Of a stretch of DNA of 64,000 nt, positions 19,481 to 45,994 are shown piece after piece (position 1 is the stretch's first letter; the number at the start of each line of letters is the position of its first letter). The translations under genes and the position numbers were made by a program. The notes under the pieces were generated by a model. That model ran no database searches, was not told the DNA's origin, and worked only from the letters and a program-made list of their open reading frames with translations. The DNA comes from Thermoplasmata archaeon (GTDB lineage Archaea > Thermoplasmatota > Thermoplasmata > Thermoplasmatales > GCA-001856825): assembly GCA_021816725.1 (NCBI GenBank), contig JAKAXD010000006.1, positions 1 through 64,000 on the forward strand, read 5' to 3'.

Positions 19481-19552
19481 AGGGTAGGTGGGGATTCGAA
19501 CCCCAATAGTCGGGATCTGCAGTCCCGTGCATAGCCGCTCTGCCACCTACCC
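19481..19552 (-). tRNA. tRNA-Cys (GCA)
   Basis: Minus strand GGGTAGG-...-CGGGA CTGCAGA TCCCG-...-TGGGG TTCGAAT CCCCA-CCTACCC-T: full cloverleaf, anticodon GCA, U73 discriminator. Confidence 0.93.
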
Positions 19553-20626
19553 AGCTTCCTCTTTATCAACTTCAGAGTAATTGATTTTACTGAACCTCTT
19601 TGCAATGGCCCTTGCCTCTTCCCTGTTGTTCCTGACCATTTCCATGAATCTCTGCATGAAGTCTAAATTGTGGACTGTGACGAGATACTGGAATGAAGGG
19701 TCCTCATTCTTGTATAATTCCCTCAACTTCGTCCTGCTATAGTAGGTGCACGTTTCGCACGAACAACCTCTCTCAATTGGCCCAAAGTCTGAGGAATGCT
19801 TGGCGTTCTTCAAGTTCACCGGTCCGTCATTAGTCAGTGCGAATCCATGCCGTGCATTCCTCGTAGGATACGTGGAATCGAATATTCCAACCCCCAGTTC
19901 TGAATATTCCACTATTGATATCGGGTCACCTACACCCATCAGATAGATCGGATATTCCCTCGGAATGAGGGGGACAGTTTTTGTCAACACTAGGTCAGTC
20001 AGTTCCTTAGGCTCTCCTATCTTTAGCCCTCCTATTGCAAATCCATCGAACTCCAGGGAGATCATGAGTTCTGCGCTCTTCTTTCTCAGCTCATATTCAA
20101 AACCACCCTGGATAATCCCAAACCGTTTCTGCCCCGTCTGCTTCAGCATCGAAAATGTCTTCCCCCATTCATAAGTCCTCCTCACAGATATGGTGAATCT
20201 CTTCTCTTCTGCACCGTATGGGGGACAATCGTCTAGCATCATAGCTACGTCTGACTTTATCTTCGCCTGAATTTCTGAGCTCACCTTTGGAGTCACCTTG
20301 ACTGCCTTTCCTGATTTCCTATCCTTGAAAATGATACCTTCGTTGTCTACCTTTACCAGTTCCTCTCTCAGTATCTGGAAACCTCCGGAATCGGTGAAGT
20401 AGCTACCGTTGAATCCGGTATAGCCGTTGATGCCGCCAGTTCTTTCTATGATCTCCATCCCAGGTGATATCGTCAGGTGGACAGAGTTTGAAATAAGGGC
20501 TTTTATTTCCATCTTGTTGATTTTCTGCATTGGCACCGCCTTTACAAAGCCCCTTGTAGCAACGGGCAAAAATACAGGTAGTTCAATACTTCCCCGCGAT
20601 AGATTTAACTCTGCATTTAATTGCAC
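19547..20626 (-). CDS. tgt: tRNA-guanine transglycosylase, bacterial-type (no PUA domain)
   Basis: 359 aa; 'YFTDSGGFQ', 'FAIGGLKIGEPKE', 'YPIYLMGVGDP', 'DSTYPTRNARHG', Zn site 'CSCETCTYYSRTKLREL...HNLDFMQRFMEMVR'. Confidence 0.9.
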   Translation of the reverse strand: MQLNAELNLSRGSIELPVFLPVATRGFVKAVPMQKINKMEIKALISNSVHLTISPGMEIIERTGGINGYTGFNGSYFTDSGGFQILREELVKVDNEGIIFKDRKSGKAVKVTPKVSSEIQAKIKSDVAMMLDDCPPYGAEEKRFTISVRRTYEWGKTFSMLKQTGQKRFGIIQGGFEYELRKKSAELMISLEFDGFAIGGLKIGEPKELTDLVLTKTVPLIPREYPIYLMGVGDPISIVEYSELGVGIFDSTYPTRNARHGFALTNDGPVNLKNAKHSSDFGPIERGCSCETCTYYSRTKLRELYKNEDPSFQYLVTVHNLDFMQRFMEMVRNNREEARAIAKRFSKINYSEVDKEEAG

Positions 20627-20657
20627 TCAATCATTATCCACACTTGATAAAATACCT

Positions 20658-21200
20658 TTACATTTTTGACTGTTCAGAGTAGCATCTTTCGCAGTAGTAG
20701 TTCCCCGCCTTATAAATGAGATTGTCTGAGAACTCGTTGCATGAATCGCAGATGCCGTGGATTCCTTTGATTATCCCCTGGCTCTTGTTGTCCAAGATGC
20801 CCCTTGTTATTTCTATCAATCCCGGCGATATTCTTACTATGTCGTTCTCGGTCAATATCCCAACTATTTCTCTGTTCATCACCACTGGCAGTCTTCTTAT
20901 TTTCCTCTTCCACATCATTTCTGCTGCGGTTTCCAGCGGACTATCTCCCTCAACGTGAATGAGCGGTGAACTCATTATATCCTTGAGTTTCCTTTCTCCG
21001 GGAGAAAGGCCGGCTGCAGCAATTTTCGTGACTATGTCCCTCTCAGTGACAATACCAACAATTCTCCCATCTTCCTCGATGAGCAGCGAGCTGACACCCT
21101 TAAGAGCCATCATCTTTGCCCCCTCTTCAGCTGTAAGAAAGGCATCTACTTTTATTGGATTCCTTGACATCACCTCAGATACCTTTATGAAACTCATCAA
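20658..21200 (-). CDS. CBS-domain pair protein with C-terminal Zn-ribbon
   Basis: Two CBS repeats ('VSEVMSRNPIKVDAFLTAEEGAKMM', 'LKDIMSSPLIHVEGDSPLETAAEMM') and 'CDSC...YYCERC'. Confidence 0.85.
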   Translation of the reverse strand: MMSFIKVSEVMSRNPIKVDAFLTAEEGAKMMALKGVSSLLIEEDGRIVGIVTERDIVTKIAAAGLSPGERKLKDIMSSPLIHVEGDSPLETAAEMMWKRKIRRLPVVMNREIVGILTENDIVRISPGLIEITRGILDNKSQGIIKGIHGICDSCNEFSDNLIYKAGNYYCERCYSEQSKM

Positions 21201-21448
21201 CTCACCGCCAGGATATCCTTGCTTCCCTCGACTATCCTGAAAGGCCTCTTTACTTTCAGTATATTTTCAATAACTTCAATCCTTTTAGCCATGTAGATTC
21301 TAAGCTTTTGCGGATCTCCCTTTCCGATCTTCAACATCGTGTCTGCATCGCCATATAGGTAGGCCTCCATCTTTATCTTGAATGATGTATCTGAGTCAAG
21401 ACCCTTTAGGTCTACCTTCCTCATGCTTGTAATAACAACTTGTTGCAA
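21197..21448 (-). CDS. Conserved-looking small hypothetical protein
   Basis: 83 aa, start upstream of and 4-nt overlap with CBS gene (operonic). Confidence 0.5.
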   Translation of the reverse strand: MQQVVITSMRKVDLKGLDSDTSFKIKMEAYLYGDADTMLKIGKGDPQKLRIYMAKRIEVIENILKVKRPFRIVEGSKDILAVS

Positions 21449-21507
21449 TAATAGTTTTCCTAAATACTATGGAAAGATTTTATTTTAAGTTTGATTATTA
21501 AAATGAG

Positions 21508-22350
21508 ATGCTCTATCTTGGATGTTCTGGATTCCAGTATGAAGACTGGAAGGAAACATTCTACCCAAAGGGGATGGAGGAAAGCAGATACCTCCTGTAC
21601 TATTATAAATTCTTCAATTCGGTGGAGATAGATTCAACGTATTACTCTTTCCCTGGCGAGAAGACAGTGAACTCGTGGATATCAAAACTTCAAGGGAAGG
21701 AAGATTTTCTCTTTTCTTTGAAATTTCCAAGGGATGTGACCCATGATCCAGCCGGCATCACGGAGAAGTCTATAGAAACTGCAAGGGAGTTTATAAAAAA
21801 GGTCATGTCACCCATTGACCATTCGGGGAGACTGGGCTCTGGTCTGGTACAACTATCTCCGTTCCTCGATCCTATTAAAGATGAACACTTGCTAGGGAGA
21901 ATGGAGGATTTGTTCGCAGCAATATACTCAGATTACAGGATAGCAGTTGAGATCAGGAACAGGAATTTCCTTGATCCGAAGGTGTTGCCTGGTTTTATTG
22001 ATATGCTGAAGAAATTCAACGTAGCGCTAGCGAGCGTTGATTCCCCCGGCCTTCCCTATTTCTACCATCCAACGGCAAATTTCTCCTACGTAAGGTTCCA
22101 TGGACGAAACTATGACCTGTGGTATGGCAAAGGGGATCTCAAGGGGAGGCTCAACAAATACGACTACCTATATTCCCCAGAAGAACTGAGACCCTGGGTT
22201 GACAGAATAAGAGAGATGGGTGATGAAGTGTTCATTTACTTCAACAATCACGCCCAGGCAAAAGCAGCGATAAATGCATCTGAATTCCAGAAATACATGG
22301 GCATCAAGATCGTCAGAAAGGACACGCAGACAAACCTGAATGCATTTTAA
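21508..22350 (+). CDS. DUF72 family protein (TIM-barrel)
   Basis: 'LYLGCSGFQYEDWKETFYP', 'FFNSVEIDSTYYSFP', 'YVRFHGRN', 'VFIYFNNHAQAKAAINA'. Confidence 0.88.
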   Translation: MLYLGCSGFQYEDWKETFYPKGMEESRYLLYYYKFFNSVEIDSTYYSFPGEKTVNSWISKLQGKEDFLFSLKFPRDVTHDPAGITEKSIETAREFIKKVMSPIDHSGRLGSGLVQLSPFLDPIKDEHLLGRMEDLFAAIYSDYRIAVEIRNRNFLDPKVLPGFIDMLKKFNVALASVDSPGLPYFYHPTANFSYVRFHGRNYDLWYGKGDLKGRLNKYDYLYSPEELRPWVDRIREMGDEVFIYFNNHAQAKAAINASEFQKYMGIKIVRKDTQTNLNAF

Positions 22351-22373
22351 CAACTTATGATTATCCAGACGTA

Positions 22374-23972
22374 ATGAAACCGTTCCAGAAATTCGATGCA
22401 ATCGCAAGAGAGAAGATAGATTCCTATCTTGCTGCTCATTCCCTTGAGAGGAACTACAGGTCCTACAGGCCTCAGAAGGGCTTTGGTGATATGTCATTCG
22501 ATTTCCAGAGAAGTGGGCTCAATCTAAACCAAGAGGAGATAGCAGGCCTGAGCGATAAATATGTGACTTTCAAACCTGTTGGAAAGTTTGTAAATGCAAT
22601 TTATGACCGTCAGGAATTCGCAAAGGCCGCTCTTGAGGAAGGAATGAACGGCAATCTTTTCAAGTTTGATAAAAAGATGGAGAGCATTCTTGTGGAACAC
22701 ACCAGTGCTAACCCGACTGGTCCGCTCCATATAGGCAGGGTAAGGAATTCAATCATAGGCGATACGTTGTCGAGGATACTCTCAAAATACGGGTATACGG
22801 TTACCACGGAGTATTACGTAAACGACATAGGGACGCAGGTGGAAGCACTCCTGATTGGGACGGAGAAGTTCGGGAGCGAGAACTACACCGAGTCATATCG
22901 TAAGGTGTATGATGACTTTGATTCATACAAGGCAAAAGTTGAAGAATACATGGTGAGGGCTGAATCTGGGGACACTGAGTTCCTCAAGACCTCCAAGGAG
23001 AAACTTGAAATCTTCCTCAACGACGTACTGATGGACCTCAAGAAGCTCTCGATCACCTTTGACACCTTTGTCTGGGAGAGTGAGTTCATTCTTAACGGTG
23101 GTGTGAGGGATATCATTGCAAGGCTAGCTCCTCTCCTCAAGGACGATGGCGGCGCCAAGTATCTTGAATCAGGACAGGACAAGATGTACCTCATAAGAAC
23201 AAATGGCACTTCCGTATACTTCACCAGGGACATAGCCCATCACCTGAGGAAATCAACCCAGTATGACCGCTGCATCACCGTTCTGGGGGAGGACCACAAG
23301 TCATATTTCAAGAAGATAGAGTATGCAATGGAAATACTTGGCGTGCACAACGTCAGCGCCCTGTTCTATTCGTATATTTCAACCAAGGAAGGAAAAATGA
23401 GCACGAGAAGGGGTAATGTAGTCTATGTCAGGGATTTCATAGATGAAGCCATAGACAGGGCCAGAGAAGAGATCATCAAGAGGAGAAATGACCTGTCTGA
23501 AGAACAAATAAGTGAAATTGCGAACAAGATAGGTGTTGCTGCCGTAAGGTACCATATCATCAAGTATTCTCCAGACAAGCCAGTGACATTTGACTGGGAG
23601 GAGGCACTGAATTTTGATGGGGATGCTGCCCCTTTTGTAATGTATTCCTATGCAAGGGCAAGATCAATACTATCCAAGTCAGAAGAAAGCTCGGAGATCA
23701 TCTGGGAATTCGAGGAGCCTGAAAGTGAACTCATGAAGGAGATATCCCTGTACCCGGAAGTGGTGGATGATGCGATGATGCATTCCCGTCCAGACAAGAT
23801 AGCTAGATACTCGTACAATCTTGCAGGTGCATTCAATCAGTTCTACAGGGACTGCCCGGTTTTAGATAGCGGTGAAAGTCTCCAGAGAAGAATTGAGATA
23901 GTAAGGATATTCACAAGAACAATGGAAGAATTGTTTCAGATGCTTGGTATACAAGCATCCGATAAAATATAA
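22374..23972 (+). CDS. argS: Arginyl-tRNA synthetase
   Basis: 'VEHTSANPTGPLHIGRVRNSIIGD' (HIGH-like), 'YYVNDIGTQVE', 'KEGKMSTRRGNVVYV'. Confidence 0.95.
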   Translation: MKPFQKFDAIAREKIDSYLAAHSLERNYRSYRPQKGFGDMSFDFQRSGLNLNQEEIAGLSDKYVTFKPVGKFVNAIYDRQEFAKAALEEGMNGNLFKFDKKMESILVEHTSANPTGPLHIGRVRNSIIGDTLSRILSKYGYTVTTEYYVNDIGTQVEALLIGTEKFGSENYTESYRKVYDDFDSYKAKVEEYMVRAESGDTEFLKTSKEKLEIFLNDVLMDLKKLSITFDTFVWESEFILNGGVRDIIARLAPLLKDDGGAKYLESGQDKMYLIRTNGTSVYFTRDIAHHLRKSTQYDRCITVLGEDHKSYFKKIEYAMEILGVHNVSALFYSYISTKEGKMSTRRGNVVYVRDFIDEAIDRAREEIIKRRNDLSEEQISEIANKIGVAAVRYHIIKYSPDKPVTFDWEEALNFDGDAAPFVMYSYARARSILSKSEESSEIIWEFEEPESELMKEISLYPEVVDDAMMHSRPDKIARYSYNLAGAFNQFYRDCPVLDSGESLQRRIEIVRIFTRTMEELFQMLGIQASDKI

Positions 23973-23987
23973 AGGAAAAAATAAAAT

Positions 23988-26879
23988 TTAAACTTTCAGT
24001 TGCTTCTTTGGTGGTTTCTGATCCTTGGGCCTCTTTCTTCTTACCGTGACGTCATAGTATATGAACGAAAGTATTCCAATAGCAACCACTATTCCGCCGA
24101 CGAGTGCGGGAAGTTTCCAGGCGGCCTGTGCAATTGAAACTGCCTTGGTAACTGATGCGTTCGTGTTGAAGAAGGTTGGTTCATTTACTGCGTGCACTGT
24201 TATGATCATAGAGTAGGTTCCGGAATTTGGTGGCACAAATGTGATAGTTGCATTGGAAGATTGGTTAGAAGAAAGATTCGAGAACGTCTGGTTCTTGATT
24301 ACCTTACCGCCTATGTTGATTGTCACATAATATGATGATGCCGTCTCCAAACCGACATTTTTAAGGTTAAGCTTCAGTGTGGAAGAGGAACCTTCAACGT
24401 AACTCTTTGGATATGTAACGTTCATGATCTCTATTTCAGGACCAACCGCGTTAACGCTGAGGCTCTGTGTATTGGAATTTGTGTTGTTAGACTGATCCGT
24501 TGCCTTTAGCTTTATCTCAAATGTTCCATACTCCAAGAATGCAACTGTAAGGGTTGAGTTATTAGATGATGTGCTGTATACTTTGTAATCCACGTTCTGC
24601 TTCGCAACAGTTCCGTTCTGGAAGCTGAAATACCATACATATGATACTATGTGGCCCCCGTTTGGTGCTATTGTCTTAGAAGCATTTAGCGTTACATTCT
24701 GCCCCTGATTCGTGGAAGTTATCACATTGCCCGTTGTTACGTTGTATATCTGGAAAAAGACGACTGGAGGCGTTGTATCGTTGACGTGTATGGTTATGCT
24801 AACGTTGAAACTGTTTCCAACTCCATTCATTACCGTCGCATATGCATGTTGTACCGCTCCATTGAATGTAGGGGTCTGGAAGGAATAAGATACGTTTGTT
24901 CCTGTTTCTGACGTACCTGCAATGTCCCAGGTCACCGAAATGGGTATGCCCGTTGACTGGCCGTTTGGAAGGAGGTCCTTGGATTTTATGGAGTTGAAAT
25001 ATACTGTCACTGTCTGGTTCACGTAAAGCACGTACTGTGCAGATGAAGATGTTGTTTCGTTGAATCTTAACTTTCCGTTTTGCAATACTCGCAGGTTGAA
25101 TTGAGGATTCAATGAATCTCCAATTATTGTGAAATTTGTCTGGTTTGTTACGCCGCTTGAGCTCCTAACACTAAGAGATACTGGATAGGAACCGCTGGTG
25201 AAGTTGTATGAAATATTATATCCATACATCACAGAGCCTCCAATACTCCATGTGAAATTCATGCTCTGGTAGTTGTCCATCCCCAGAACTGGGTCGTAGG
25301 GGACCTTACTGGCGTTTATGTTTACCATCTTTCCAACTGGCACTAGCAGCGTGAAATTAGATGATGTGTTAGAGGAAATTGTTGACTCGAACCAGCCACT
25401 CCAGGTTGCTGATATTTGGCTCATTTTCAAGAGTGGTTTCTGCTGCGGAGCTATATTGATTGTCAGGAATCCGTTGATGCTGCTGTTTGTTATCGTGATG
25501 ACACCAGAATACCCTGAGACAGTCGCAACGCTGGAGCTGACAATGTTTGCCCTTTGATATGGCGAAGGTATGCTTAGTTGAGTGATGTATGTAAGTGCGG
25601 TTGTGTTGTTGTCATTCTCATTGAGATAAATCCTGATGCTGCTGTAGCTTTGCACTTTCACCTTGGACTGGTAGTATGAGGCTGTATAGCTAAACTTGTA
25701 TGTACCTGCAGTCTCAGAGAAAGTCGTATGAACGCCTGTTGAGTTATACGAGTAATTGTTGTACAGGACTGTGTTTGCCGTTGTGTATGGTACCGTAACA
25801 TTCAATATAGCCCAAAGCTCGTTCGTTGACAGCCCGTCCAGCATCATTTGCTGATAAAGAGAACCTGCATTCGAGTTTGGAAGGAATGGAAGAGTTGTTG
25901 CATTTGTCAGTGTTATACCGCCTGAAATGGTGACGTTCTGGAAACCTGATCCAAACGATACCATTTCCGTCTGCGTGACGATTGAAGGTGTCAGTACTAC
26001 TGTCTGGAAGAGGGACATGGTCCCCGTCGTAACAGTAGTGGTATATGGAAGATAACCTGGTGACGAAATTATGAGACTATATGTTCCGGGAGAAAGAGAT
26101 AGGTAATAATATCCATTTGTGAATTGATCTGCACCCAGTAGAACTCCACCCTGATATATTGATACCTCGACCCTGTTGATTGATGATCCGCTGGACGAAG
26201 TAACTACCCCTTGTATATTGTCAAGTGATGACACATTGGCAACCACGCTATTGTTAGTCTTGCTTGCTGATATATTCAGGGATTCAGAGTAGAAAGCCTT
26301 TGAAGTGGAATTGTACGCAATGGTAAGGGTTTGTGGACCGGGTATGCTCATGACAGCATATCCTGAGTTAGGATTTGAGGCATTGACCCTTGACGCAGTC
26401 ATTTCAAACCCATTTGGAAGAGTCAGGTAAACTGAAGTCACCTGAGCTGCTGAAATTCCTTTTACCGTAACATATACGTGGGAAGAAGCCTCTGCGTAAC
26501 CCACATTCAGCGTGCTTAGAACAGAACTTCCCGAGTATACTGTTCCGTTGCTCTTCACACTTATGGTCGCATGTGCTGAATCATAAACTATCAACGAAGA
26601 TGATACGTACTGGCTTGGAACGTAAATTATGTAGCTTCCGGGATATACCGAAAATCCTACAGTGGGGCCGGATGTGCTAGTAGCAAGAACGACTCCATTT
26701 GAACTCTCCAGTTCTACATTTACTCCAGTTGCTGGGGAGATTCCGTTCCCCAGGACCGTAAAACTAAACGACACCTTATTTACTCCTTGCACTTGGCCGA
26801 GCGCTGCTCCGAAGAGTCCTCCCATCACCATTATGGTGATGATTAACAGAGCTGCTATTTTTCCAGATTTCTTAAGCAT
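23988..26879 (-). CDS. Large secreted, C-terminally membrane-anchored surface protein with Ig/PKD/CARDB-like repeats
   Basis: 963 aa; signal peptide, many N-x-S/T sequons, 'TWSIGG...GYNISYNFTSGSYPVSLSV' PKD-like segments, C-terminal TM followed by a basic tail 'RRKRPKDQKPPKKQLKV'. Confidence 0.75.
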   Translation of the reverse strand: MLKKSGKIAALLIITIMVMGGLFGAALGQVQGVNKVSFSFTVLGNGISPATGVNVELESSNGVVLATSTSGPTVGFSVYPGSYIIYVPSQYVSSSLIVYDSAHATISVKSNGTVYSGSSVLSTLNVGYAEASSHVYVTVKGISAAQVTSVYLTLPNGFEMTASRVNASNPNSGYAVMSIPGPQTLTIAYNSTSKAFYSESLNISASKTNNSVVANVSSLDNIQGVVTSSSGSSINRVEVSIYQGGVLLGADQFTNGYYYLSLSPGTYSLIISSPGYLPYTTTVTTGTMSLFQTVVLTPSIVTQTEMVSFGSGFQNVTISGGITLTNATTLPFLPNSNAGSLYQQMMLDGLSTNELWAILNVTVPYTTANTVLYNNYSYNSTGVHTTFSETAGTYKFSYTASYYQSKVKVQSYSSIRIYLNENDNNTTALTYITQLSIPSPYQRANIVSSSVATVSGYSGVITITNSSINGFLTINIAPQQKPLLKMSQISATWSGWFESTISSNTSSNFTLLVPVGKMVNINASKVPYDPVLGMDNYQSMNFTWSIGGSVMYGYNISYNFTSGSYPVSLSVRSSSGVTNQTNFTIIGDSLNPQFNLRVLQNGKLRFNETTSSSAQYVLYVNQTVTVYFNSIKSKDLLPNGQSTGIPISVTWDIAGTSETGTNVSYSFQTPTFNGAVQHAYATVMNGVGNSFNVSITIHVNDTTPPVVFFQIYNVTTGNVITSTNQGQNVTLNASKTIAPNGGHIVSYVWYFSFQNGTVAKQNVDYKVYSTSSNNSTLTVAFLEYGTFEIKLKATDQSNNTNSNTQSLSVNAVGPEIEIMNVTYPKSYVEGSSSTLKLNLKNVGLETASSYYVTINIGGKVIKNQTFSNLSSNQSSNATITFVPPNSGTYSMIITVHAVNEPTFFNTNASVTKAVSIAQAAWKLPALVGGIVVAIGILSFIYYDVTVRRKRPKDQKPPKKQLKV

Positions 26880-27254
26880 CTTGGTATTACCCCCTAAAGA
26901 TGTCTGGTAATTATAATTACTATTAAACAGTTGTTATGATTTTTCCTTGCTGGAAAATTTATATTCAATGTTAATTATGTTTTAATTCATAAATATGTCA
27001 AAACAGTTTTAAAACGTATAATTTGCACTTTCGATAGTGCTCTGACATTTGAAATATTTCCTGGGCGATCTTTACGGAGAATATCTGTCCTCTATTTGGG
27101 ATGTCGAATGTATGAAGAAGACTTTACTGATCTTTCGAAGGAAATGGGGATGAATGACTCAATGCGAAACTCGTCTGCTTGCTTACAAGGTGAAGATTTT
27201 TCCTTCTCGTCAAATTACAGTCTGGATTGTGGAACTATGTTCCATCCAGTTGTT

Positions 27255-28202
27255 TCATGAACCCTTAAATTTTATATCCACATTCCTCTCCTCCGCTTCC
27301 ACGTAAATTCTGTCAACGAATGGAATCAATGATTTTATCGATACCTCAATCTCATCAATTGCCCTCTCAATCTCGCTAGTGCTGAGTCCGTCGTTGAAGT
27401 TGAGGTCCATGGCCAGGAGAATCTTTTCCGGACCCTCGTAGATTGCTTTAATGTCGAGTATCTTGTTCACCGATTTGTTGGACTTCAGGATTTCCTCAAT
27501 CTTCTTCTGATCCCTCGCGGATATGCCCTCGCCTATGAGGAGGTCCTTGCTCCTCTTTGAAAGGTAAAGTCCCGAAAGCATCATTATGATACCGATGACA
27601 ATCGAGGAAGATGCATCATATACATTGTTCCCTGTTACAAGGGAAAGGGAGATGCCCACGAGTGCGGTCGTCACTCCGGCAATCGCCGCGGCATCCTCTG
27701 TCAAAGCCGTCAGCAGGACTGGATCCCTAAAATCCCTCATGAAGGAGAACAGGTCGTGATACCCCTGTTTTCTGTATTTGGAGATAAATAATCCAGAAGA
27801 TATGTATAGGACGTAACCGTCAATCGCAAATGACATTGCAAGGACAACATATGCTGATATTGGTTCAGTGATCCTGTAATGCGTCGTCAGCTTTATGATA
27901 CCCTCCACGAACGTCAGCACTCCGGAAATTCCGAAGACCAAAATGGCTGCCACGAATGACCAGAAAAATTGTTCCCTTCCTCTTCCGAACGGAAACTTCG
28001 ATGCGTCCTTCTTTGTGCTCAGGTTATACCCTATCAAGAGAAGGAACTGGTTCACTGCATCTGAAGATGAATGAACTGCTTCTGCCAGCATCGCCGCGCT
28101 CCCGCTAAGACCTGCAGCAACGTATTTCAGTGCAGCTATGAATAAATCACCGAGAAACGCCCGTATTACTACGCTTCTGGTTGTGGTCCTGACTGGAGAC
28201 AT
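27255..28202 (-). CDS. Cation diffusion facilitator transporter
   Basis: 'GSAAMLAEAVHSSSDAVNQFLLLIG', 'FPFGRGREQFFWSF', 'TEDAAAIAGV', C-terminal cytoplasmic domain. Confidence 0.9.
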   Translation of the reverse strand: MSPVRTTTRSVVIRAFLGDLFIAALKYVAAGLSGSAAMLAEAVHSSSDAVNQFLLLIGYNLSTKKDASKFPFGRGREQFFWSFVAAILVFGISGVLTFVEGIIKLTTHYRITEPISAYVVLAMSFAIDGYVLYISSGLFISKYRKQGYHDLFSFMRDFRDPVLLTALTEDAAAIAGVTTALVGISLSLVTGNNVYDASSSIVIGIIMMLSGLYLSKRSKDLLIGEGISARDQKKIEEILKSNKSVNKILDIKAIYEGPEKILLAMDLNFNDGLSTSEIERAIDEIEVSIKSLIPFVDRIYVEAEERNVDIKFKGS

Positions 28203-28260
28203 CTCAATTTTCTACAATCATGCCCCGGAAGGCCATATACTTATTCCAAAAGTTTAGAGG

Positions 28261-28530
28261 TCAGGATATGAGGGAAACTTCCTCGACTTCTACTTCTCCT
28301 ACATCTTGGAAGGAACGTATCCTTTGCTCCACGCTGTCCACTAGTCCGCCCTCATCACCCATTATGACTATGAGTTTCAGGACCTTTATTCCAAATGCAA
28401 GTTCTTCTATACTGCTCTTCCCCAGTGCGTAGTTCTTGGAAAGGTCTTCTTTCAGTCCCTTTTCAATTGCCACCAAATCCTTTGTTTCATCCGACGGCAT
28501 TACCTTGAAAGATACGGCTACCTTGCCCAA
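28261..28530 (-). CDS. ef1b: Translation elongation factor aEF-1 beta
   Basis: 89 aa; 'GKVAVSFKVMPSDETKDL', 'EELAFGIKVLKLIVIMGDEGG', TTG start. Confidence 0.85.
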   Translation of the reverse strand: MGKVAVSFKVMPSDETKDLVAIEKGLKEDLSKNYALGKSSIEELAFGIKVLKLIVIMGDEGGLVDSVEQRIRSFQDVGEVEVEEVSLIS

Positions 28531-28532
28531 TT

Positions 28533-28706
28533 TTATGGCCCCCTAAAACCACATTTCGGGCACTGATATGTTACAGACAGTTCTCTGCAGTTGTTGCACC
28601 TGCTGATAGTCTCCTGACCGCAAGAGGGGCACTTGAATGTAGTCGCTCCCCTTTCCTGCAGACCAGTGCCGCAGGATGTACAGAACTCTAGTGCGTTGAC
28701 TTCCAT
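28533..28706 (-). CDS. 57-aa zinc-ribbon protein (absent from supplied ORF track)
   Basis: Translation MEVNALEFCTSCGTGLQERGATTFKCPSCGQETISRCNNCRELSVTYQCPKCGFRGP: four CxxC knuckles, like archaeal HVO_2753-type small Zn proteins. The listed ORF 28543..28755 is out of frame with it. Confidence 0.85.
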   Translation of the reverse strand: MEVNALEFCTSCGTGLQERGATTFKCPSCGQETISRCNNCRELSVTYQCPKCGFRGP

Positions 28707-28754
28707 GAGGCATGCGTATAGCTTCAGGCATAAAAAGTCTATCGGCCTTATCCA

Positions 28755-30485: not shown

Positions 30486-30491
30486 AAGCCA

Positions 30492-30932
30492 TCACAGCCA
30501 ATCTCTATCTGCCCTTTCGTAAGTTAGAATTTCTCTTTCATCGAAAAATATTGGGATCTCGTATTTAGCGGATTCCTCAGAGTCGCTTGCGTGAATGAGA
30601 TTGCAATCTATACCCGTTGAGAAATCTCCCCTTATTGTCCCGGGCTCTGCCTTTGCCCCATTGGTAGCCCCAACAAGCTTCCTCACTATCTCGATACAGT
30701 TGTTCCCTTCCACGACCATTGCCACTAAAGGCGCGGATGTGATGTAATTCAGGAGCGATTCGTAAAATGGCTTCCCCTTGTGGACTGCGTAGTGCTTCTC
30801 AGCCCTCTCCCTATCGAGCTTCATGAGCTTTAGTGCCGTGACCTTGAGACCCTTGTCTTCAAACCTGGATATGATGGCTCCCACCTTAGACCTGGCGACG
30901 CCATCTGGTTTGATCAAGACTAAAGTTCTCAA
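30492..30932 (-). CDS. ndk: Nucleoside diphosphate kinase
   Basis: 'TLVLIKPDGVARSKVG', 'NLIHASDSEESA' active-site His region. Confidence 0.95.
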   Translation of the reverse strand: MRTLVLIKPDGVARSKVGAIISRFEDKGLKVTALKLMKLDRERAEKHYAVHKGKPFYESLLNYITSAPLVAMVVEGNNCIEIVRKLVGATNGAKAEPGTIRGDFSTGIDCNLIHASDSEESAKYEIPIFFDEREILTYERADRDWL

Positions 30933-30944
30933 TTGATCTCCCCC

Positions 30945-31450: not shown

Positions 31451-31463
31451 TTTGAATCACTCT

Positions 31464-33003: not shown

Positions 33004-33396
33004 GTGTCTGAATACGAGAATCTCCAGAAAGATATAAAGAGACTTGACCTGGGAAAGATAGATTCTGTGACCTTCCCATATGGTGAGAACACAACACACA
33101 TAACCATAGAGACTGATGAATTTACCTCCATCTGCCCAAAAACAGGCATGCCTGATTTCGGGAAGATTACCGTTCACTACCTTCCCGACAGGAAGATAGT
33201 TGAGCTGAAGTCTTTCAAGCTTTACCTTCATAAGTACAGGAACGTCGGCATATTCCAGGAGAATGCAGTGAACAAGATACTCGATGACCTTGTAAGGAGC
33301 TGCTCACCAAGATTCATGACGGTTATAGGGGAATTCAATGCAAGGGGAGGGCTCAAGACGAGGGTAGTATCGAGGTTCGAAAAAGTTAAGACTTAA
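33004..33396 (+). CDS. queF: QueF, NADPH-dependent 7-cyano-7-deazaguanine reductase (bacterial-type unimodular)
   Basis: 'FTSICPKTGMPDFGKITVHYLPDRKIVELKSFKLYLHKYRNVGIFQENAVNKILDDL...GEFNARGGL': catalytic Cys and Asp plus QueF motif E-L-K-S-F-K-L-Y. Confidence 0.93.
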   Translation: MSEYENLQKDIKRLDLGKIDSVTFPYGENTTHITIETDEFTSICPKTGMPDFGKITVHYLPDRKIVELKSFKLYLHKYRNVGIFQENAVNKILDDLVRSCSPRFMTVIGEFNARGGLKTRVVSRFEKVKT

Positions 33397-33399
33397 CCT

Positions 33400-33593: not shown

Positions 33594-33598
33594 AACAC

Positions 33599-37969: not shown

Positions 37970-37985
37970 AAAGCTCCCTTCTAGA

Positions 37986-39164
37986 TCAAATCAGTCTCAT
38001 TCTCTTTCCGACTTCTTCAAATTTGTCACCCGCATACTTCAGGTCCTCCCTCGAGTGGACTGCGGATGGCATCAGCCTTATCCTTGCGGTTCCCTTTGCA
38101 ACAGTAGGATAGACAATGGGAGAAGCGAACACACCTTCGTCGTAAAGTGATTTGCTAAGTTCCACTGTCTCCTTCTCACCCCCTATTATAACTGGTGTTA
38201 TTGGGGTCTTGCTTTTTCCAGTGTTGAACCCAAGATTATTGAGCTTCTCCTTTAGGAAATCTGAGTTGTTCCAGAGTTTCTTGAGGAGTGAGTCGTCCTT
38301 CTCCATTATTTCTATGCTCTTCATGACAGCTGCTACTTCACCTGGATTCAATGCTGAGCTGAAAAGGAAAGGCCTGGCCTTTTGTTTAAGATAATCTATC
38401 AGCTCATTCCTTCCTGCCACGAACCCTCCCATGACGCCAACAGCCTTCGAGAATGTCCCCATCTCGACGTCAACCTTGTCCCCTATCTTGAAATGATCAA
38501 CGATCCCCCTTCCATGGTCACCAAGAACACCTTCACCATGTGCATCATCCACATAGACCATAGAATCATATTTCTCTCCCAGCTCTGCCTCTTCTTTCAG
38601 CGGTGCTATATCACCATCCATGCTGAAAACTCCGTCCGTAACTATTAGCGCCCTCTTCCCAGTGGAGCGTTCAGTTTTCAGCTTCTCCTCGAGATCAGGG
38701 GGGGATACGTGGGAGAATACTACTCTCTTTGCAGAGCTAAGCCTGACGCCATCTATTATACTGGCATGGTTAAGTTCCTCGCTGAATACTAAGTCGTCTT
38801 TCCCTACAAGCGCTGGAATAGTTCCCAGGTTGGCAAGCAGGCCGCCCTGGTATACAAGTGATGACTCCATGTGCTTGAATTGTGCAATCTTTTCCTCAAG
38901 CTTAATGTGGATTTCCATTGTACCGGCAATACTCCTCACAGCTCCAGCACCTACGCCGTATGCGTCTATTGCATCGTGCATTGCCTTCTTTACTTCAGGG
39001 TTGTTTGCAAGTCCCAGATAATTATTGGAACACAGGTTCAGCAGTTTTCTTCCATCGATCTTGACCCACGCTCCCTGTGATGTCTGTAATGTCCTTATGG
39101 GAACGTACCGACCGGACTCTTTCAAAAGGTTTATCTCTTCGTTCACCCAGTCCATTTTCCCCAT
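37986..39164 (-). CDS. kbl: Glycine C-acetyltransferase (2-amino-3-ketobutyrate CoA ligase)
   Basis: 392 aa; 'LNLCSNNYLGLANNPEV', 'VYVDDAHGEGVLGDHGRGIVDH', PLP 'GTFSKAVGVMGG'. Confidence 0.9.
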   Translation of the reverse strand: MGKMDWVNEEINLLKESGRYVPIRTLQTSQGAWVKIDGRKLLNLCSNNYLGLANNPEVKKAMHDAIDAYGVGAGAVRSIAGTMEIHIKLEEKIAQFKHMESSLVYQGGLLANLGTIPALVGKDDLVFSEELNHASIIDGVRLSSAKRVVFSHVSPPDLEEKLKTERSTGKRALIVTDGVFSMDGDIAPLKEEAELGEKYDSMVYVDDAHGEGVLGDHGRGIVDHFKIGDKVDVEMGTFSKAVGVMGGFVAGRNELIDYLKQKARPFLFSSALNPGEVAAVMKSIEIMEKDDSLLKKLWNNSDFLKEKLNNLGFNTGKSKTPITPVIIGGEKETVELSKSLYDEGVFASPIVYPTVAKGTARIRLMPSAVHSREDLKYAGDKFEEVGKRMRLI

Positions 39165-39334
39165 GCCCCGAGATGTTATCAGCAGTCATATACTTTGCTT
39201 TACTACACGCTGCTGATGTTTAGATAATCAGTAAGAATTAGTGTTCCCTTGAAATTTTGGATATGGTAAAATCGCCTTCGATGCGAAAAAATCTTTGCGA
39301 AATATTTTTTATTTCCGCATAACTGTTTGTACGA

Positions 39335-40273
39335 ATGACATTCGAAAAGATCATGGTCACGGGTGCAAGTGGCCAAATAGGCAGTGAGCTCGTACCATTT
39401 CTGTCTGAAGTTTTCGGAAAAGAGAGAATTATACCATCGGACGTGAGGCCTAACTCAACCGATCCGAGATTTATCGCCCTTGACGTCACTGACAGGACCT
39501 CCGTTGACAGGGCAATGGACAAATACAAGATTGATACTGTTTTCCATCTCGCAGCCATTCTCTCAGCAAACGGCGAGAAGAACCCGGAACTGGCTTACAA
39601 GGTCAACATTTCAGGGATGTACAACATCCTGGAGTCAGCAGTAAGGAACAAGGTGAAACTGGTACTGACACCAAGTTCTATAGGCGTGTTCGGACCTGAC
39701 ACACCGAAGGAAAACGTTCCCATCGAGACTATAGCCAGGCCAGTCACAATGTATGGAATAACAAAGCTGCTGGCAGAACATCTGGGTAATTACTATCATG
39801 CTAGATTCGGCCTCAACGCACGTGGACTAAGATTCCCTGGACTGATAAGCTACAAGACTGCACCTGGTGGAGGCACTACCGATTATTCGATAGAAATGAT
39901 CATTGAAGCAGCCAAGGGAAAAAATTACAAATGCTTTCTAAGGGAGAACTCGAAACTTCCGATGATGTATATGCCTGACGCGCTTGATTCACTATTGAAA
40001 CTTGCAGAAGCAGAAGATTCCAGACTGAAGCATCGGACAGATTTTAACGTGGCTTCCTTCTCTGTGACACCGAAGGAGCTCGAAACGGAACTGAAGAAAT
40101 ACTTTCCTAGATTCCAGGCGACTTATGAGCCTGACTTCAGGCAGTCCATTGCAGATTCATGGCCTGGATCGCTAGACGCATCCGCTGCCGTAACCGAATG
40201 GGACTTTCATCCAAACTACAATCTGAGGGCAACAGTGGAGGATATGATTATCCATCTAAAGACAAGTAAGTAA
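39335..40273 (+). CDS. tdh: L-threonine dehydrogenase, SDR/epimerase type
   Basis: 'KIMVTGASGQIGSELVPFL', 'VFHLAAILSANGEKNP', 'YGITKLLAEHLGNYY', 'RGLRFPGLISYKTAPGGGTTDYS'. Confidence 0.9.
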   Translation: MTFEKIMVTGASGQIGSELVPFLSEVFGKERIIPSDVRPNSTDPRFIALDVTDRTSVDRAMDKYKIDTVFHLAAILSANGEKNPELAYKVNISGMYNILESAVRNKVKLVLTPSSIGVFGPDTPKENVPIETIARPVTMYGITKLLAEHLGNYYHARFGLNARGLRFPGLISYKTAPGGGTTDYSIEMIIEAAKGKNYKCFLRENSKLPMMYMPDALDSLLKLAEAEDSRLKHRTDFNVASFSVTPKELETELKKYFPRFQATYEPDFRQSIADSWPGSLDASAAVTEWDFHPNYNLRATVEDMIIHLKTSK

Positions 40274-40364
40274 TTATGTTCCCTTAAGAAAGATAACCAC
40301 CCTTTGGTATTGCTATTGAACTTCAACGCTCAAATGTTTTAAGTATTTAGTTAATCTTTGAATC

Positions 40365-41273
40365 GTGCAAATGGAGAATGAGATAGTACAGGTATACGAC
40401 CTGGAAAAACTACAGGAAGAAACGCCATTTCTGATATTTGTTCCAGGCGATTTGGAGATCAGGAATGTAACATACCGCACAGAGGGAAGAAAGTGGGCGA
40501 CATTGCGGTATGAATGCATAATAGATGGAGAGAAGATCAGAGTGAAGGAATTCTTCCTGGACTGGTTCTATCCAGGATTTCCCAAGAGTCTTATGGAATC
40601 TTTCGTCTCCTCATATTCTATGGTCGATAGTATACCAATGAAGGACTGGGTAATTTTCACTGGCAAGAACTACAAGGGTAAGGAGGCAGCCTCTTCTTTT
40701 TCTCTTGGAACACAGATAGAAGTGGAGGGGGAGTCAAGGAAGAATGTCAGCAAACTTAGTGAAAGAATGTTTGCTCCCTTCCCAGATGAAAGATTCAAAA
40801 GATTTCCATTTTATAGACGATCATTCTTCGCAAATAAGGGAGAGCCTGAATGGTTTGAGGAGAGGAGGATAAGTAATCTTGACTGGAAAACACCGAAGAG
40901 TGACTTTTGCGTGGGAGACCTCTGCATGGACTCAGTAGGTATCTTCAAAAAAGACGGCAGCATCATAGAAACAATTTTTGCGTTCTCTGAAGATTATTAC
41001 AGGAGGGCTTCGTGGGTAGATATAGCCAGGCCTACTGAACATGCTGAACACTTGATATACGACTTAAGGCACAGTGGCAATTTCTTTGAAGAATTCGAAA
41101 AGGGGGAACCGACATTTGCATTCAGGAAGGAGCAGGGACCTGCAATAGCCAGGTCCAAATTTGGAGAATATGTTGTCACTGTGTCCTTATCTCCCCTGTT
41201 CAGTTTTTCTGAGGCCAAAGGTATAGTGAATGAATTGATGGGCACCGTCGAAGACCAGAAAAGGTTTATTTGA
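40365..41273 (+). CDS. Hypothetical protein, no recognised family
   Basis: 302 aa with uniform codon-like composition; no motif recognised. Confidence 0.6.
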   Translation: MQMENEIVQVYDLEKLQEETPFLIFVPGDLEIRNVTYRTEGRKWATLRYECIIDGEKIRVKEFFLDWFYPGFPKSLMESFVSSYSMVDSIPMKDWVIFTGKNYKGKEAASSFSLGTQIEVEGESRKNVSKLSERMFAPFPDERFKRFPFYRRSFFANKGEPEWFEERRISNLDWKTPKSDFCVGDLCMDSVGIFKKDGSIIETIFAFSEDYYRRASWVDIARPTEHAEHLIYDLRHSGNFFEEFEKGEPTFAFRKEQGPAIARSKFGEYVVTVSLSPLFSFSEAKGIVNELMGTVEDQKRFI

Positions 41274-41293
41274 AATTTTGAATAGGGTAATCG

Positions 41294-41728
41294 ATGATTT
41301 TAGATAAGCCGGCAATGATAAAGGACCTCCTGGAAAAGAGCAAGACTATTGCAGTAGTTGGAATGTCCCCAAATCCTGAAAGGGATTCCAATAAGGTCGG
41401 GAAATACCTGATTGATATCGGGTACAACGTGATTCCAGTAAATCCAACTGTCCAGGAAATATACGGGAAAAAAACATACCCTTCCATCCTAGACATACCC
41501 AAGGACGTGAAAATTGACATAGTGGACGTATTCAGAAATCCGGAAGCTTCTAAGGAGGTTGTACTCCAGGCACCGAGTTTGCATCCAAAGGCCGTTTGGC
41601 TCCAGCTCGGAGCTGAAAGCCCGGATGTCATAAAGACAGCATTATCAGAAAACCTCGATGTAGTCTACGGAATCTGCATAATGGAGACGCATAAAAAAGT
41701 ATCAAATGATGAGTTCTTTAGTATTTAA
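41294..41728 (+). CDS. CoA-binding domain protein (YccU-like Rossmann)
   Basis: 'IAVVGMSPNPERDSNKVGKYLIDIGYNVIPVNPTVQEIYGKKTYPSILDIP'. Confidence 0.88.
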   Translation: MILDKPAMIKDLLEKSKTIAVVGMSPNPERDSNKVGKYLIDIGYNVIPVNPTVQEIYGKKTYPSILDIPKDVKIDIVDVFRNPEASKEVVLQAPSLHPKAVWLQLGAESPDVIKTALSENLDVVYGICIMETHKKVSNDEFFSI

Positions 41729-41819
41729 AGAGCAGAGTTTATATTCGATATTTTCTATAAGATATTTTGAATAAAATCTATATTCCTCACGCCAGCCGTA
41801 ATATTAAAAATAGCATTAA

Positions 41820-41833
41820 CTTTATATATTAAA
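41820..41833 (+). promoter_or_regulatory. TATA box of HTa gene
   Basis: 'tttatatattaaa' about 24 nt upstream of the ATG at 41850 (leaderless arrangement). Confidence 0.6.
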
Positions 41834-41849
41834 TGTAGATATTCTCAAT

Positions 41850-42119
41850 ATGGTCGGAATAAACGAGATTGCCAGAGACATCGCCAAGAGTTCCGGCGTA
41901 TCTGTCAGAAGCGCTGAGTCAGTAATAAGGGGAACCTTCAAGGCTATTGTGACGAACATAAACAAAGGACAGAAGGTTAGAATTGCAGGATTCGGAATCT
42001 TCTCGAGGAAGCAAACAAAGGCAAGGAACGCTAAGAATCCTAGGACAAAGCAGATCATAAGGGTTCCCGCAAAGAACAAAGTACACTTCAGTGCATCTTC
42101 AAAGATAAAATACAAGTAA
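41850..42119 (+). CDS. HTa, HU-family histone-like DNA-binding protein
   Basis: 89 aa; 'VRSAESVIRGTFKAIVTNINKGQKVRIAGFGIFSRKQTKARNAKNPRTKQIIRVPAKNKVHFSASSKIK' matches the HU/IHF signature. Confidence 0.95.
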   Translation: MVGINEIARDIAKSSGVSVRSAESVIRGTFKAIVTNINKGQKVRIAGFGIFSRKQTKARNAKNPRTKQIIRVPAKNKVHFSASSKIKYK

Positions 42120-42127
42120 ACTTCTAT

Positions 42128-42165
42128 TAATTTTTCTTCTTTTATTTTCTCCCCTTCTAATCATT
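42128..42165 (+). terminator. T/pyrimidine-rich putative terminator after HTa gene
   Basis: 'atttttcttcttttattttctccccttct' directly downstream of the stop. Confidence 0.35.
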
Positions 42166-42359
42166 CTCAAAAATTAAATATCAGAACATTATCCAATTTT
42201 GTAGTCCAATTTCGTGAATAGAACATAAGATTTCTTTAAAAGGCGGTGCGTATTGCCTGCTTGAGAATAGCTTGTTTTCTGAATAATATTCCTTTCAGCA
42301 AGTGCCACTTTTGACCCTTTAAATCTGAAAATGAATGGAGTTGGACTCGAGGTGTTTTT

Positions 42360-42509
42360 ATGAAAATAGAAGCGAATGTGACATGTTTTTGTCTCGGAAC
42401 TGGAATGAAATTTTGCATAAACAACTTCGGAAAATTGGATGAGAACACAATGGATGCCGAAACGCAACTGGCCTTCCTCGTTTTTGATGAAACCAAGGGG
42501 GGAAACTGA
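42360..42509 (+). CDS. Small 49-aa ORF, first gene of candidate HerA-nuclease unit (absent from ORF track)
   Basis: MKIEANVTCFCLGTGMKFCINNFGKLDENTMDAETQLAFLVFDETKGGN; stop/start overlap TGATG with the next gene. Confidence 0.5.
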   Translation: MKIEANVTCFCLGTGMKFCINNFGKLDENTMDAETQLAFLVFDETKGGN

Positions 42510-43066
42510 TGTCTTCGTATTGGAAAATTTATGTCAGGGACAGGGAGAATCTAAGGTTTCTTCTCAATATCCTTCTGACCAATAGAGAAACAGAGCTTAT
42601 GATCAGGAGGAATGACTCACTGTCAGTGTTTGTTGGCTACAGCCACAAGGAGGCCGAAATTGTCCAGTATATCAGGGAGGAGCTTGGCAACAAGATTGAG
42701 AATGTTCTTCTCAGCAAACAATGGAGGGAAAATGTGTTCTTGTTCAATAAGCCGAGGTTCATGTTTGATTCAATTTTTCCTTTTTTGGTTGAAACTTCAT
42801 CCTTTTTGATGAAAGGTGACGAATTACACGTGAGGGTAGAAAGGTACTCAACATTAAATCCTCTGAGAAGGAGGTATTTGGGCCCAAAGGCAGGAAAGGT
42901 GCTGTACAGGGTAAGACTTTTTTCGCCAATCCTCTTGAGGGCCTATACGAACAGGGATGGAAAGCAGTGCCTCACGTTTGAGAGAAGAAATCCCTTGATA
43001 CTCACAAGCTACGAGCTTTCATCGCTCATAAATGGGAGTGGAGACCATGGACTACTGGCCGTATGA
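42509..43066 (+). CDS. Uncharacterised 185-aa protein preceding HerA-like ATPase
   Basis: Coupled to flanking ORFs by overlaps on both sides; no known motif recognised. Confidence 0.65.
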   Translation: MSSYWKIYVRDRENLRFLLNILLTNRETELMIRRNDSLSVFVGYSHKEAEIVQYIREELGNKIENVLLSKQWRENVFLFNKPRFMFDSIFPFLVETSSFLMKGDELHVRVERYSTLNPLRRRYLGPKAGKVLYRVRLFSPILLRAYTNRDGKQCLTFERRNPLILTSYELSSLINGSGDHGLLAV

Positions 43067-44696
43067 AAACGGCATACCCTTCCCCCTCGTAGAGAAAAGA
43101 ATATGCTTCCCTAGGGAATTCCTTGAAAACCACTCCCTTGTCCTCGGGAAAACTGGAACAGGAAAGTCAAACTTGCTCGCACAACTGATTAGGATGTACG
43201 AGGAAGAGGGTAAAACGGTGTTGGTCTTTGATCCTCATGGTGAACTTTGGAAATACGGTAGCCCAAATTCATCCATTATAACCCTTTCACCTTTCCCCGG
43301 CCAGGAAATGGGATACCTTCGGTTCAACATGATGTCAGTCCTACCCTATCAGAGCGAAGGTGAACGATTGATAAACGAAGAACTTGTAGTGCAGACTCTA
43401 AAGGATATATTCTCCACAGAATCTGCTTTTTCGATAGGTACATGGGGACCAAGGATAGAGCTGATATTCACAGTACTTACCAGACTGCTGCTGAAGTACA
43501 AAATCAATCCTACGATCCAGGACCTATCTGATCTGCTCCTTAATTATTACAAAAGAAAGGACTTTTCATCTTCACTTGAACCTGAGGAAAAGGCCCAATT
43601 CTATTCAATATTCAGCCAGGGACCGGAGTTCATATCATCGAGCGTTAACAAGATTGTCCCTCTTCTGACAAACGAGGTATCTAGGAAGTTATTCGCATCA
43701 AGAGAGGATTTTTATGATCTTTCGAAACTGAAGAAAACCCTTTACGTAGAACTATCTGGAGAATTTTCTCCAAGTTCCCTTGCCAGGCCATTTTCGATAA
43801 TGCTGCTATATAAGATCTGGAACAACGTAATTCTTCGACGAATGAAAGATGTAGTCCTGGTCATGGATGAATTCCAGACTTTCTCCCCTCACATATCGCA
43901 GCGACTGGTAACTGAGGGAAGAAAGTTTTCCCTTTGGGCAGTCATGGCCACACAATCACTCTCATCCCTTGATCAACCGCTTGCCTCAGCAATACGGACA
44001 AATGCCCACAACTTCTTCCTATTTCAACTCTCTAACGAAGATGCTTCATCATTTAGATACGGTGGAAAGCCCTTGAGGAATCCTGAATTTCACAGATTCA
44101 ATTGCCTTGTACCTAGGAGCGAAAGTACATTTTACGGAATGACTAGATTGGCCTCTCCGAGCAAAGAATTCTCTATTTCAAGGGAATTCTATGATTTCGC
44201 GGGTGATGAGGAGAAGCTCGACAGGGAATTTCCGGAAAAGATGGACCCGGTTCGTCTGAGCAACTTGGTATCTTTGGGTCTGGCAACGATTGTTGATGGA
44301 AAGGTGCATATGGAGGAGGAATACTTTGAAAAGATAGGCTCAAGGCACAAGAAAGGGAGCGAGTCGATGTTCCACAGATACCTCGTTACAAGATCGTATT
44401 TCTTCTTCAGGAACAAGGGGTATGAAGTTTACGAAGGAATAGAGTACGACGGCCGTCATCCAGACCTTGTTATAGTGAAGGATGAGGAGAGAATTGCGGT
44501 AGAATGCGAATATTCCGATCTTCATAATAAATCGAGAATAAATGAGAAGATGAAATTCTACAGCCGTGTCATATTTTCTGCTTTCAGGGATAAGAAGGAA
44601 GAGTTCCCTCCTGAGACCAATCTACTATTGATTCCGCCGATTGGAGATCATTCCGAGCCAGAATACCTGGGGGATAGGAATGTAATTGACCTATGA
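43032..44696 (+). CDS. HerA/VirB4-like DNA-pumping ATPase with C-terminal PD-(D/E)XK-like nuclease domain
   Basis: Walker A 'LGKTGTGKSN', Walker B 'VVLVMDEFQTF', 'MATQS'; C-terminal 'YDGRHPDLVIVKDEERIAVECEYS' fits D-x(n)-E-x-E nuclease spacing. Confidence 0.8.
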   Translation: MGVETMDYWPYENGIPFPLVEKRICFPREFLENHSLVLGKTGTGKSNLLAQLIRMYEEEGKTVLVFDPHGELWKYGSPNSSIITLSPFPGQEMGYLRFNMMSVLPYQSEGERLINEELVVQTLKDIFSTESAFSIGTWGPRIELIFTVLTRLLLKYKINPTIQDLSDLLLNYYKRKDFSSSLEPEEKAQFYSIFSQGPEFISSSVNKIVPLLTNEVSRKLFASREDFYDLSKLKKTLYVELSGEFSPSSLARPFSIMLLYKIWNNVILRRMKDVVLVMDEFQTFSPHISQRLVTEGRKFSLWAVMATQSLSSLDQPLASAIRTNAHNFFLFQLSNEDASSFRYGGKPLRNPEFHRFNCLVPRSESTFYGMTRLASPSKEFSISREFYDFAGDEEKLDREFPEKMDPVRLSNLVSLGLATIVDGKVHMEEEYFEKIGSRHKKGSESMFHRYLVTRSYFFFRNKGYEVYEGIEYDGRHPDLVIVKDEERIAVECEYSDLHNKSRINEKMKFYSRVIFSAFRDKKEEFPPETNLLLIPPIGDHSEPEYLGDRNVIDL

Positions 44697-44820
44697 TCAA
44701 GAGAAGGGATGGAAGCAATTATTTCTAAATTTACCTATTTTATTGCAATCTCTTCCCCAAATCGAATACCGTCATTGCTACAGGGACCAGAAAGGATTTC
44801 AGTGTGGAAGTTGATATACC

Positions 44821-45291
44821 ATGGTGGAAATATTCATCGATGGGAATTATTCAAATATCAGGTTCTCTGCCGCCCACTTCATTCCTGGTGACTGGAAGTG
44901 CTCGCGTATCCACGGTCACGACTATTCCATATCCGTGAGGATAACAGGCTCACTTGACGATAAAACATATTTCCTAGACTTCTCAAAGGCTAAATCCAAG
45001 CTAAAGGAAATAGCTGACCATCTTGACCACAGAGTGCTAATTCCTGAGAAGAGGAATGGGATATCCATAGGCAGAAGGGAAGGAAATCTGATTGTTAGAA
45101 TTGAAGGAAAGACTTACAGTTTCCCCGAGGAAGAGGCAAGGATTGTTCCAGTCAAGGATACCACAGCAGAATGTCTGAGTGAATACGTTCTCGGAAGATT
45201 CATTGATTCCCTTGATCAGGAAGTTGAAGGGGTGGATATAGAGGTACACGAGGGACCTGGACAGTATGCAAAATCAAGCTGGAAAAAATAG
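44821..45291 (+). CDS. queD: QueD, 6-carboxy-5,6,7,8-tetrahydropterin synthase
   Basis: 'NIRFSAAHFIPG...CSRIHGHDYSISVRITG' Zn/His motif, 'LDFSKAKSKLKEIADHLDHRVL', C-terminal 'EVHEGPGQYA'. Confidence 0.88.
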   Translation: MVEIFIDGNYSNIRFSAAHFIPGDWKCSRIHGHDYSISVRITGSLDDKTYFLDFSKAKSKLKEIADHLDHRVLIPEKRNGISIGRREGNLIVRIEGKTYSFPEEEARIVPVKDTTAECLSEYVLGRFIDSLDQEVEGVDIEVHEGPGQYAKSSWKK

Positions 45292-45994
45292 GGCCGTCAG
45301 CCTTCTTTCAGGTGGCCTGGACAGTTCCACTCTCCTCTCTTACGTCCTATCCAAAGGATATGAAGTTATAGCACTGTCATTTGACTACGGACAACGACAC
45401 ACAAGGGAGCTGGATTCTGCTAGGAAAATAGCAAGTTACTATGGCGTGAAACACAAGATTATGAAACTGGATTTGAGGGCGATTGGTGGAAGTGCCCTTA
45501 CAGGGGATATTGAAGTTCCAGACGTTCCTATGGAAGACATTGGTAAGGAAATACCGGTAACGTACGTCCCGGCCAGGAATACTATACTTCTTTCTATAGC
45601 ACTTGGTCTTGCGGAGGTGACTGACTCATCCAAGATATTCATAGGCGCCAATGCCCTGGATTACTCAGGTTACCCTGACTGCCGGCCGGAGTATTTCGAT
45701 TCCATCAACAAAACATTCAATTTGGCAACGAAGAAAACTGTGGAAGGTGGTAGCATCGAGGTTGAGGCCCCCTTGTTGCGATATTCTAAAGCAGATATAG
45801 TCAGGCTTGCAAACAGGCTCAAAACGCCTCTAGAACTGACCTGGTCATGCTACAACGGGAAGGAAAGGGCTTGCGGCGTATGTGATTCCTGCAAACTCAG
45901 GTTGAAGGGTTTCATGGAAGCAGGGCTGGAAGATCCGGTTGAGTATGAATCCTACCCTGATTTTTATTCCGATTATATCAAAAACAGAAGATAG
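45266..45994 (+). CDS. queC: QueC, 7-cyano-7-deazaguanine (preQ0) synthase
   Basis: 'AVSLLSGGLDSSTLLSYV' PP-loop, 'FDYGQRHTREL', 'VPARNTILLSIAL', 'SCYNGKERACGVCDSCKLRLKGF'. Confidence 0.95.
   Translation: MQNQAGKNRAVSLLSGGLDSSTLLSYVLSKGYEVIALSFDYGQRHTRELDSARKIASYYGVKHKIMKLDLRAIGGSALTGDIEVPDVPMEDIGKEIPVTYVPARNTILLSIALGLAEVTDSSKIFIGANALDYSGYPDCRPEYFDSINKTFNLATKKTVEGGSIEVEAPLLRYSKADIVRLANRLKTPLELTWSCYNGKERACGVCDSCKLRLKGFMEAGLEDPVEYESYPDFYSDYIKNRR

Follow-up and report, generated by a model that had tools for sequence, protein, structure and literature searches.

The 64,000-nucleotide stretch of DNA analysed here (the window) very probably carries some of the genes of a complete, chromosomally encoded de novo pathway to queuosine (Q), a wobble-base modification of tRNA, in the acid-loving I-plasma family of the Thermoplasmatales, beside a predicted archaeosine branch; we put the probability of this reading at about 0.85. 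The source genome is a 1.31-Mb MAG, 78.8% complete, that belongs to this family, labelled f1 below. We infer that the enzymes are active, and that Q is present in tRNA, from the genes, family membership, catalytic residues, conservation, and co-occurrence. Four pathway genes lie in the window, all at the coordinates given by an earlier, sequence-only reading of this DNA:

19547..20626, minus strand: tgt, queuosine-type tRNA-guanine(34) transglycosylase, 359 aa (TIGR00430, PDB match, kept residues)
33004..33396, plus strand: queF, one-domain (type II) NADPH-dependent preQ0 reductase, 130 aa (TIGR03139, aligned motifs)
44821..45291, plus strand: queD, 6-carboxytetrahydropterin synthase, 156 aa (Pfam PTPS, TIGR03367 below cut-off, Cys/zinc-His motif)
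45266..45994, plus strand: queC, 7-cyano-7-deazaguanine (preQ0) synthase, 242 aa (TIGR00364, Pfam QueC)

In the proposed scheme, QueD, QueE, and QueC would supply preQ0, which two branches would then use. In the archaeosine branch, ArcTGT would insert preQ0 at G15 and ArcS, with a partner, would convert it to archaeosine. In the other branch, QueF would turn preQ0 into preQ1, Tgt would exchange G34 of GUN-anticodon tRNAs for preQ1, QueA would add the epoxycyclopentanediol from SAM, and the cobalamin-dependent QueG would convert epoxyqueuosine to queuosine.

Pathway genes in the window

The four genes are far beyond chance, because QueF is found in 14 of 15 f1 genomes and the window Tgt shares 95% identity with its counterpart in Thermoplasmatales archaeon I-plasma (contig ATMD01000004.1), an independent assembly. 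The pathway genes are scattered across the genome rather than gathered in a single operon; queD and queC overlap by 26 bp. QueC passes TIGR00364 (224.8 bits; cut-off, 150.3) and scores 254 bits with the Pfam QueC model, and a domain search shows no GAT domain in it, in keeping with the earlier description of an unfused QueC. QueD is clearly a member of the PTPS/QueD family (Pfam PTPS, 74.3 bits), with a Cys and zinc-His motif (FSAAHF...KCSRIHGHDY), and its TIGR03367 score of 63.9 bits lies under the equivalog cut-off of 89.25.

The window Tgt passes the model for tRNA guanosine(34) transglycosylase (TIGR00430, 332 bits; cut-off, 306.75) and fails that for ArcTGT (TIGR00432, 116 bits; cut-off, 350), which bears out its first assignment to the G34 queuosine type. 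Its best PDB match is the Thermotoga maritima Tgt (2ash, 257.6 bits), with only 59 bits for the ArcTGT 1iq8, and it is about 39% identical to bacterial Tgts. It has the TGT catalytic domain in common with ArcTGT, represented by the Pyrococcus horikoshii enzyme (1iq8) and by the paralogue in its own genome, but it has neither a C2 nor a PUA domain and is only 26% identical to that paralogue. DpdA, which acts in DNA insertion, was considered as an identity for this protein and rejected on its score (25 bits; cut-off, 200).

Residues D102, S103, D156, C158, Q203, G230, L231, and D280 (Zymomonas mobilis numbering) are kept in all 11 f1 Tgts, as are the zinc ligands C318, C320, C323, and H349. The sole departure among the residues checked is at position 232, part of the Leu231/Ala232 peptide switch, where an invariant Lys is found in 11/11 f1 sequences; this position is mostly Ser in other Thermoplasmata and Ala or Ser in bacteria. 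In the Z. mobilis enzyme, the Ala232 side chain makes no substrate contact, and A232S cuts kcat about 100-fold (PMC3660597).

Tgt and a tRNA-Cys gene overlap by 6 nt, with the tgt stop codon falling within the 5' end of the tRNA gene (GGG-TAG-G; window positions 19481-19552). Among 10 relative loci, 8 show the same direct succession of tgt and tRNA-Cys, and the remaining two end <60 bp from tgt.

The window QueF passes TIGR03139, the QueF-II preQ1 synthase model, with 140 bits (cut-off, 86.9). Cys44 and Asp51 are invariant in an alignment of 11 sequences, and ELKSFKLY aligns with ESKSLKLY of the Bacillus subtilis QueF (4f8b), its best solved relative, as the E-x-K-S-x-K NADPH motif. These results uphold the earlier view of a reductase-type QueF with catalytic Cys/Asp and the ELKSFKLY motif. 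The crenarchaeal QueF-Like archaeosine synthase (5jyx/5k0p), which adds ammonia to preQ0-tRNA (PMC5485725), shares the QueF superfamily fold and the catalytic Cys and Asp with the window protein. The latter has the NADPH motif and scores as a reductase, and it is closer to reductase QueF than to QueF-Like: its profile gave 131.9 bits with 4f8b and 39.9 bits with 5jyx.

Archaeosine genes and predicted tRNA substrates

An ArcTGT of 598 aa with C2 and PUA domains is encoded elsewhere in the source genome (contig C17; TIGR00432, 423 bits against a cut-off of 350). The same genome encodes an ArcS-like protein of 487 aa that is matched best by two ArcS models, though below their cut-offs (253.6 bits against 600). 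With these two proteins in the genome, archaeosine at position 15 and Q at position 34 are both predicted. The earlier proposal had been preQ1 or Q "rather than, or alongside, archaeosine"; the second half of that phrase is supported, and the first is not.

Among the tRNA genes, tRNA-Asn(GUU) and an intron-bearing tRNA-Tyr(GUA) have U33-G34-U35, and tRNA-Asn also has G15. Neither tRNA-Asp nor tRNA-His is among the tRNA genes found in this 78.8% complete assembly.

The extra Tgt and QueF might serve archaeosine alone, with QueF amidinating as QueF-Like does and this second Tgt acting on another D-loop site such as G13. QueF-Like is indeed a QueF homologue, and Thermoplasma acidophilum tRNA-Leu carries archaeosine at both 13 and 15 (PMC5485725; PMC6313347), but the T. 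acidophilum ArcTGT itself serves both of these sites (PMC6313347). Moreover, the window QueF carries the motif that binds NADPH and resembles reductase QueF much more closely than QueF-Like, an ArcTGT and an ArcS-like protein are already present in the genome, and Tgt co-occurs with QueA and with QueG or QueH. We know of no role for QueA, QueG, or QueH in archaeosine synthesis, and we regard an archaeosine-only function as very unlikely.

QueE, QueG, and QueA

As had been noted, queE, queA, and queG or queH all lie outside the window. QueE and QueG are found elsewhere in the source genome. QueG (contig C7, 15543-16568; 341 aa) passes TIGR00276 with 238 bits (cut-off, 200), and QueG is above this cut-off in all eight sampled f1 genomes. 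The catalytic residues named in PMC4646009 are kept in 8/8 f1 QueGs: the DYH motif, the Asp130 equivalent, and the eight cysteines, in two sets, of the 4Fe-4S clusters. I-plasma has been reported to lack cobalamin synthesis (PMC3750248), so the f1 QueG would need imported cobalamin. QueE (contig C25, 5865-6497) is matched by its best QueE model at 226 bits, below the equivalog cut-off.

Two f22 proteins that score 196 to 199 bits, just below the QueG cut-off, were rejected as QueG (genomes G170 and G289) because they no longer have the D-Y-H motif. Their sequences suggest a distinct iron-sulphur protein related to QueG (loci L136 and L137).

A family search did not find queA in the 78.8% complete source assembly, whereas the gene is present in 7/7 f1 relatives of the 300-genome sample described below. 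The I-plasma QueA passes TIGR00113 (287 bits; cut-off, 267) and is encoded at positions 9152-10153 of the I-plasma stretch L138, after genes that, from a reading of their ORFs, are moaE-, moaA-, thiF-, and prefoldin-like. Contig C26 of the source assembly is 96.4% identical to this region and ends at L138 position 8886, 266 bp before queA. Since this contig stops so short of the gene and all seven relatives carry it, we assign queA provisionally to the source genome as well, and its absence would most simply be an assembly gap rather than a loss.

The source genome, then, has QueC, QueD, QueE, QueF, Tgt, and QueG, with QueA absent from the assembly, and a search of I-plasma for QueE, QueF, Tgt, QueA, and QueG found all five. 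Judged by these family assignments, the predicted pathway QueC/QueD/QueE/QueF/Tgt/QueA/QueG is complete at the level of the lineage. The expectation of preQ1 or Q at G34 in an archaeon is supported by the G34-type Tgt together with the reductase-type QueF, and QueE and QueG point past preQ1. Because QueE and QueG are in the source genome and queA in seven relatives, the end product is probably queuosine, beyond preQ1 alone. A pathway ending at preQ1 (or oQ) at G34 would agree with the position of QueA and QueG outside the window and with the missing QueA of the source assembly; it is quite unlikely given a QueG above its equivalog cut-off in that genome, QueA in seven sampled f1 relatives, and a queA locus just beyond the end of C26.

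Distribution among Thermoplasmata

We searched 300 Thermoplasmata genomes family by family and found, over the respective cut-offs, Q-type Tgt in 49, QueF in 35, QueH in 42, and QueG in 8; a high-scoring canonical QueA is present in 48. Q-type Tgt, QueA, and QueH or QueG co-occur across this sample. A full QueA is found in 46 of the 49 Tgt genomes, the exceptions being the contig-end gap of the source genome and two genomes whose queA is truncated by the end of a contig; conversely, 46 of the 48 QueA genomes and 32 of the 35 QueF genomes have Tgt. At the level of families, Tgt is present in 5/5 families that have QueF (Fisher P = 0.002); the genome-level P values for co-occurrence are far smaller but ignore kinship. 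All eight QueG genomes belong to f1, which alone has QueG, and the remaining Tgt-bearing families have QueH. QueH and QueG are found together in none of the 300 genomes.

Families f4, f17, f18, f20, and f27 have Tgt and QueA, and nearly all have QueH, without QueF, so that their preQ1 would have to come from salvage or from a different preQ0 reductase. QueA-like paralogues scoring 150 to 250 bits are also encoded in Thermoplasmata families that have no Q-type Tgt, QueF, or QueH; in the four genomes viewed (loci L228, L229, L230, and L231), the gene before the paralogue looks like one for a short-chain dehydrogenase.

Phylogeny and origin

The Tgt tree comprises 73 sequences, among them 15 bacterial, 17 DPANN, and 11 f1 sequences, each set forming one supported group. 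The f1 group has a long branch and clusters with f2 and f4, two families of its own order (support, 96/92). The ArcTGT branch is extremely long, and the root of Tgt relative to ArcTGT is not placeable. In the QueF tree, the f1 sequences fall among Thermoplasmata QueFs (group support, 94/87). In the QueA tree, f1 forms a single supported group separate from the other rows, and in the QueG tree it again forms a single supported group, with no clear bacterial sister among six bacterial references.

Judged by the tree, the Thermoplasmata Tgts make up a lineage of archaea that falls outside the clade of sampled bacteria. Since the bacterial sampling was small, the f1 genes may still go back to an old transfer. 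Bacterial contamination, or a very recent bacterial transfer into the bin, might be suspected of gene families best known from bacteria, but we hold it to be extremely improbable. The genes have archaeal surroundings in which neighbours are conserved, as with tgt, which abuts tRNA-Cys in 8/10 relative loci; the 95% identity is to an independent assembly; and in their trees the f1 Tgt, QueA, and QueG are each set off from the sampled bacteria as a group with full support.

A QueA from an f10 MAG (locus L070, genome G121) groups with Bacillales; that genome has no Q-type Tgt over the cut-off, and the gene is possibly a bin contaminant.

For the f1 lineage itself, we lean slightly toward a fuller picture in which single tRNAs (Asn and Tyr at least) would carry two different 7-deazaguanines, archaeosine at position 15 and queuosine at position 34, both fed by a common pool of preQ0. 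In this picture the final step would run on scavenged cobalamin, and Tgt would be a long-standing lineage of archaea and not have come in recently from bacteria.

Relation to known systems

Compared with the bacterial de novo pathway of Escherichia coli and B. subtilis (QueD/QueE/QueC/QueF/Tgt/QueA/QueG), f1 has a member of the same family for each step from QueD on. As in that pathway, QueG is a cobalamin enzyme, and the f1 QueF is of the one-domain B. subtilis type. The differences are an archaeal host in which ArcTGT and an ArcS-like protein are encoded too, the scattered genes, and Lys232 of Tgt.

Textbooks restrict Q to bacteria and eukaryotes, and a review likewise assigns Q to these two and to archaea only preQ0 and archaeosine (PMC7694415). 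PMC8204110, however, described QueA, QueH, and Tgt from 34 genomes of archaea, DPANN and Methanosarcinales among them, so f1 is not the first prediction of Q in archaea. It shares with those sets Q-type Tgt, QueA, and a predicted Q34, but has QueG in place of QueH, plus QueF and a route to preQ0. The Tgt pockets differ as well: f1 keeps Cys158 and Ser103, whereas most of the 17 sampled DPANN Tgts (loci L101-L122) have Met158 and Cys103, and Leu231 replaced by Val, in the preQ1 pocket. These changes hint at another base substrate for the DPANN enzymes.

What is new, as far as gene content can tell, is a QueF- and QueG-complete version of the predicted pathway in Thermoplasmatales, beside archaeosine genes. 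Our literature search, which covered few subscription papers, returned no report of QueG or of the full pathway in Thermoplasmatales and no measurement of Q in any archaeon. The choice between QueG and QueH presents a clean split between families of one archaeal class, and the QueF- and QueG-complete pathway beside archaeosine genes means that mass spectrometry can look for archaeal Q directly, in tRNA of acid-mine-drainage biofilm or enrichments.
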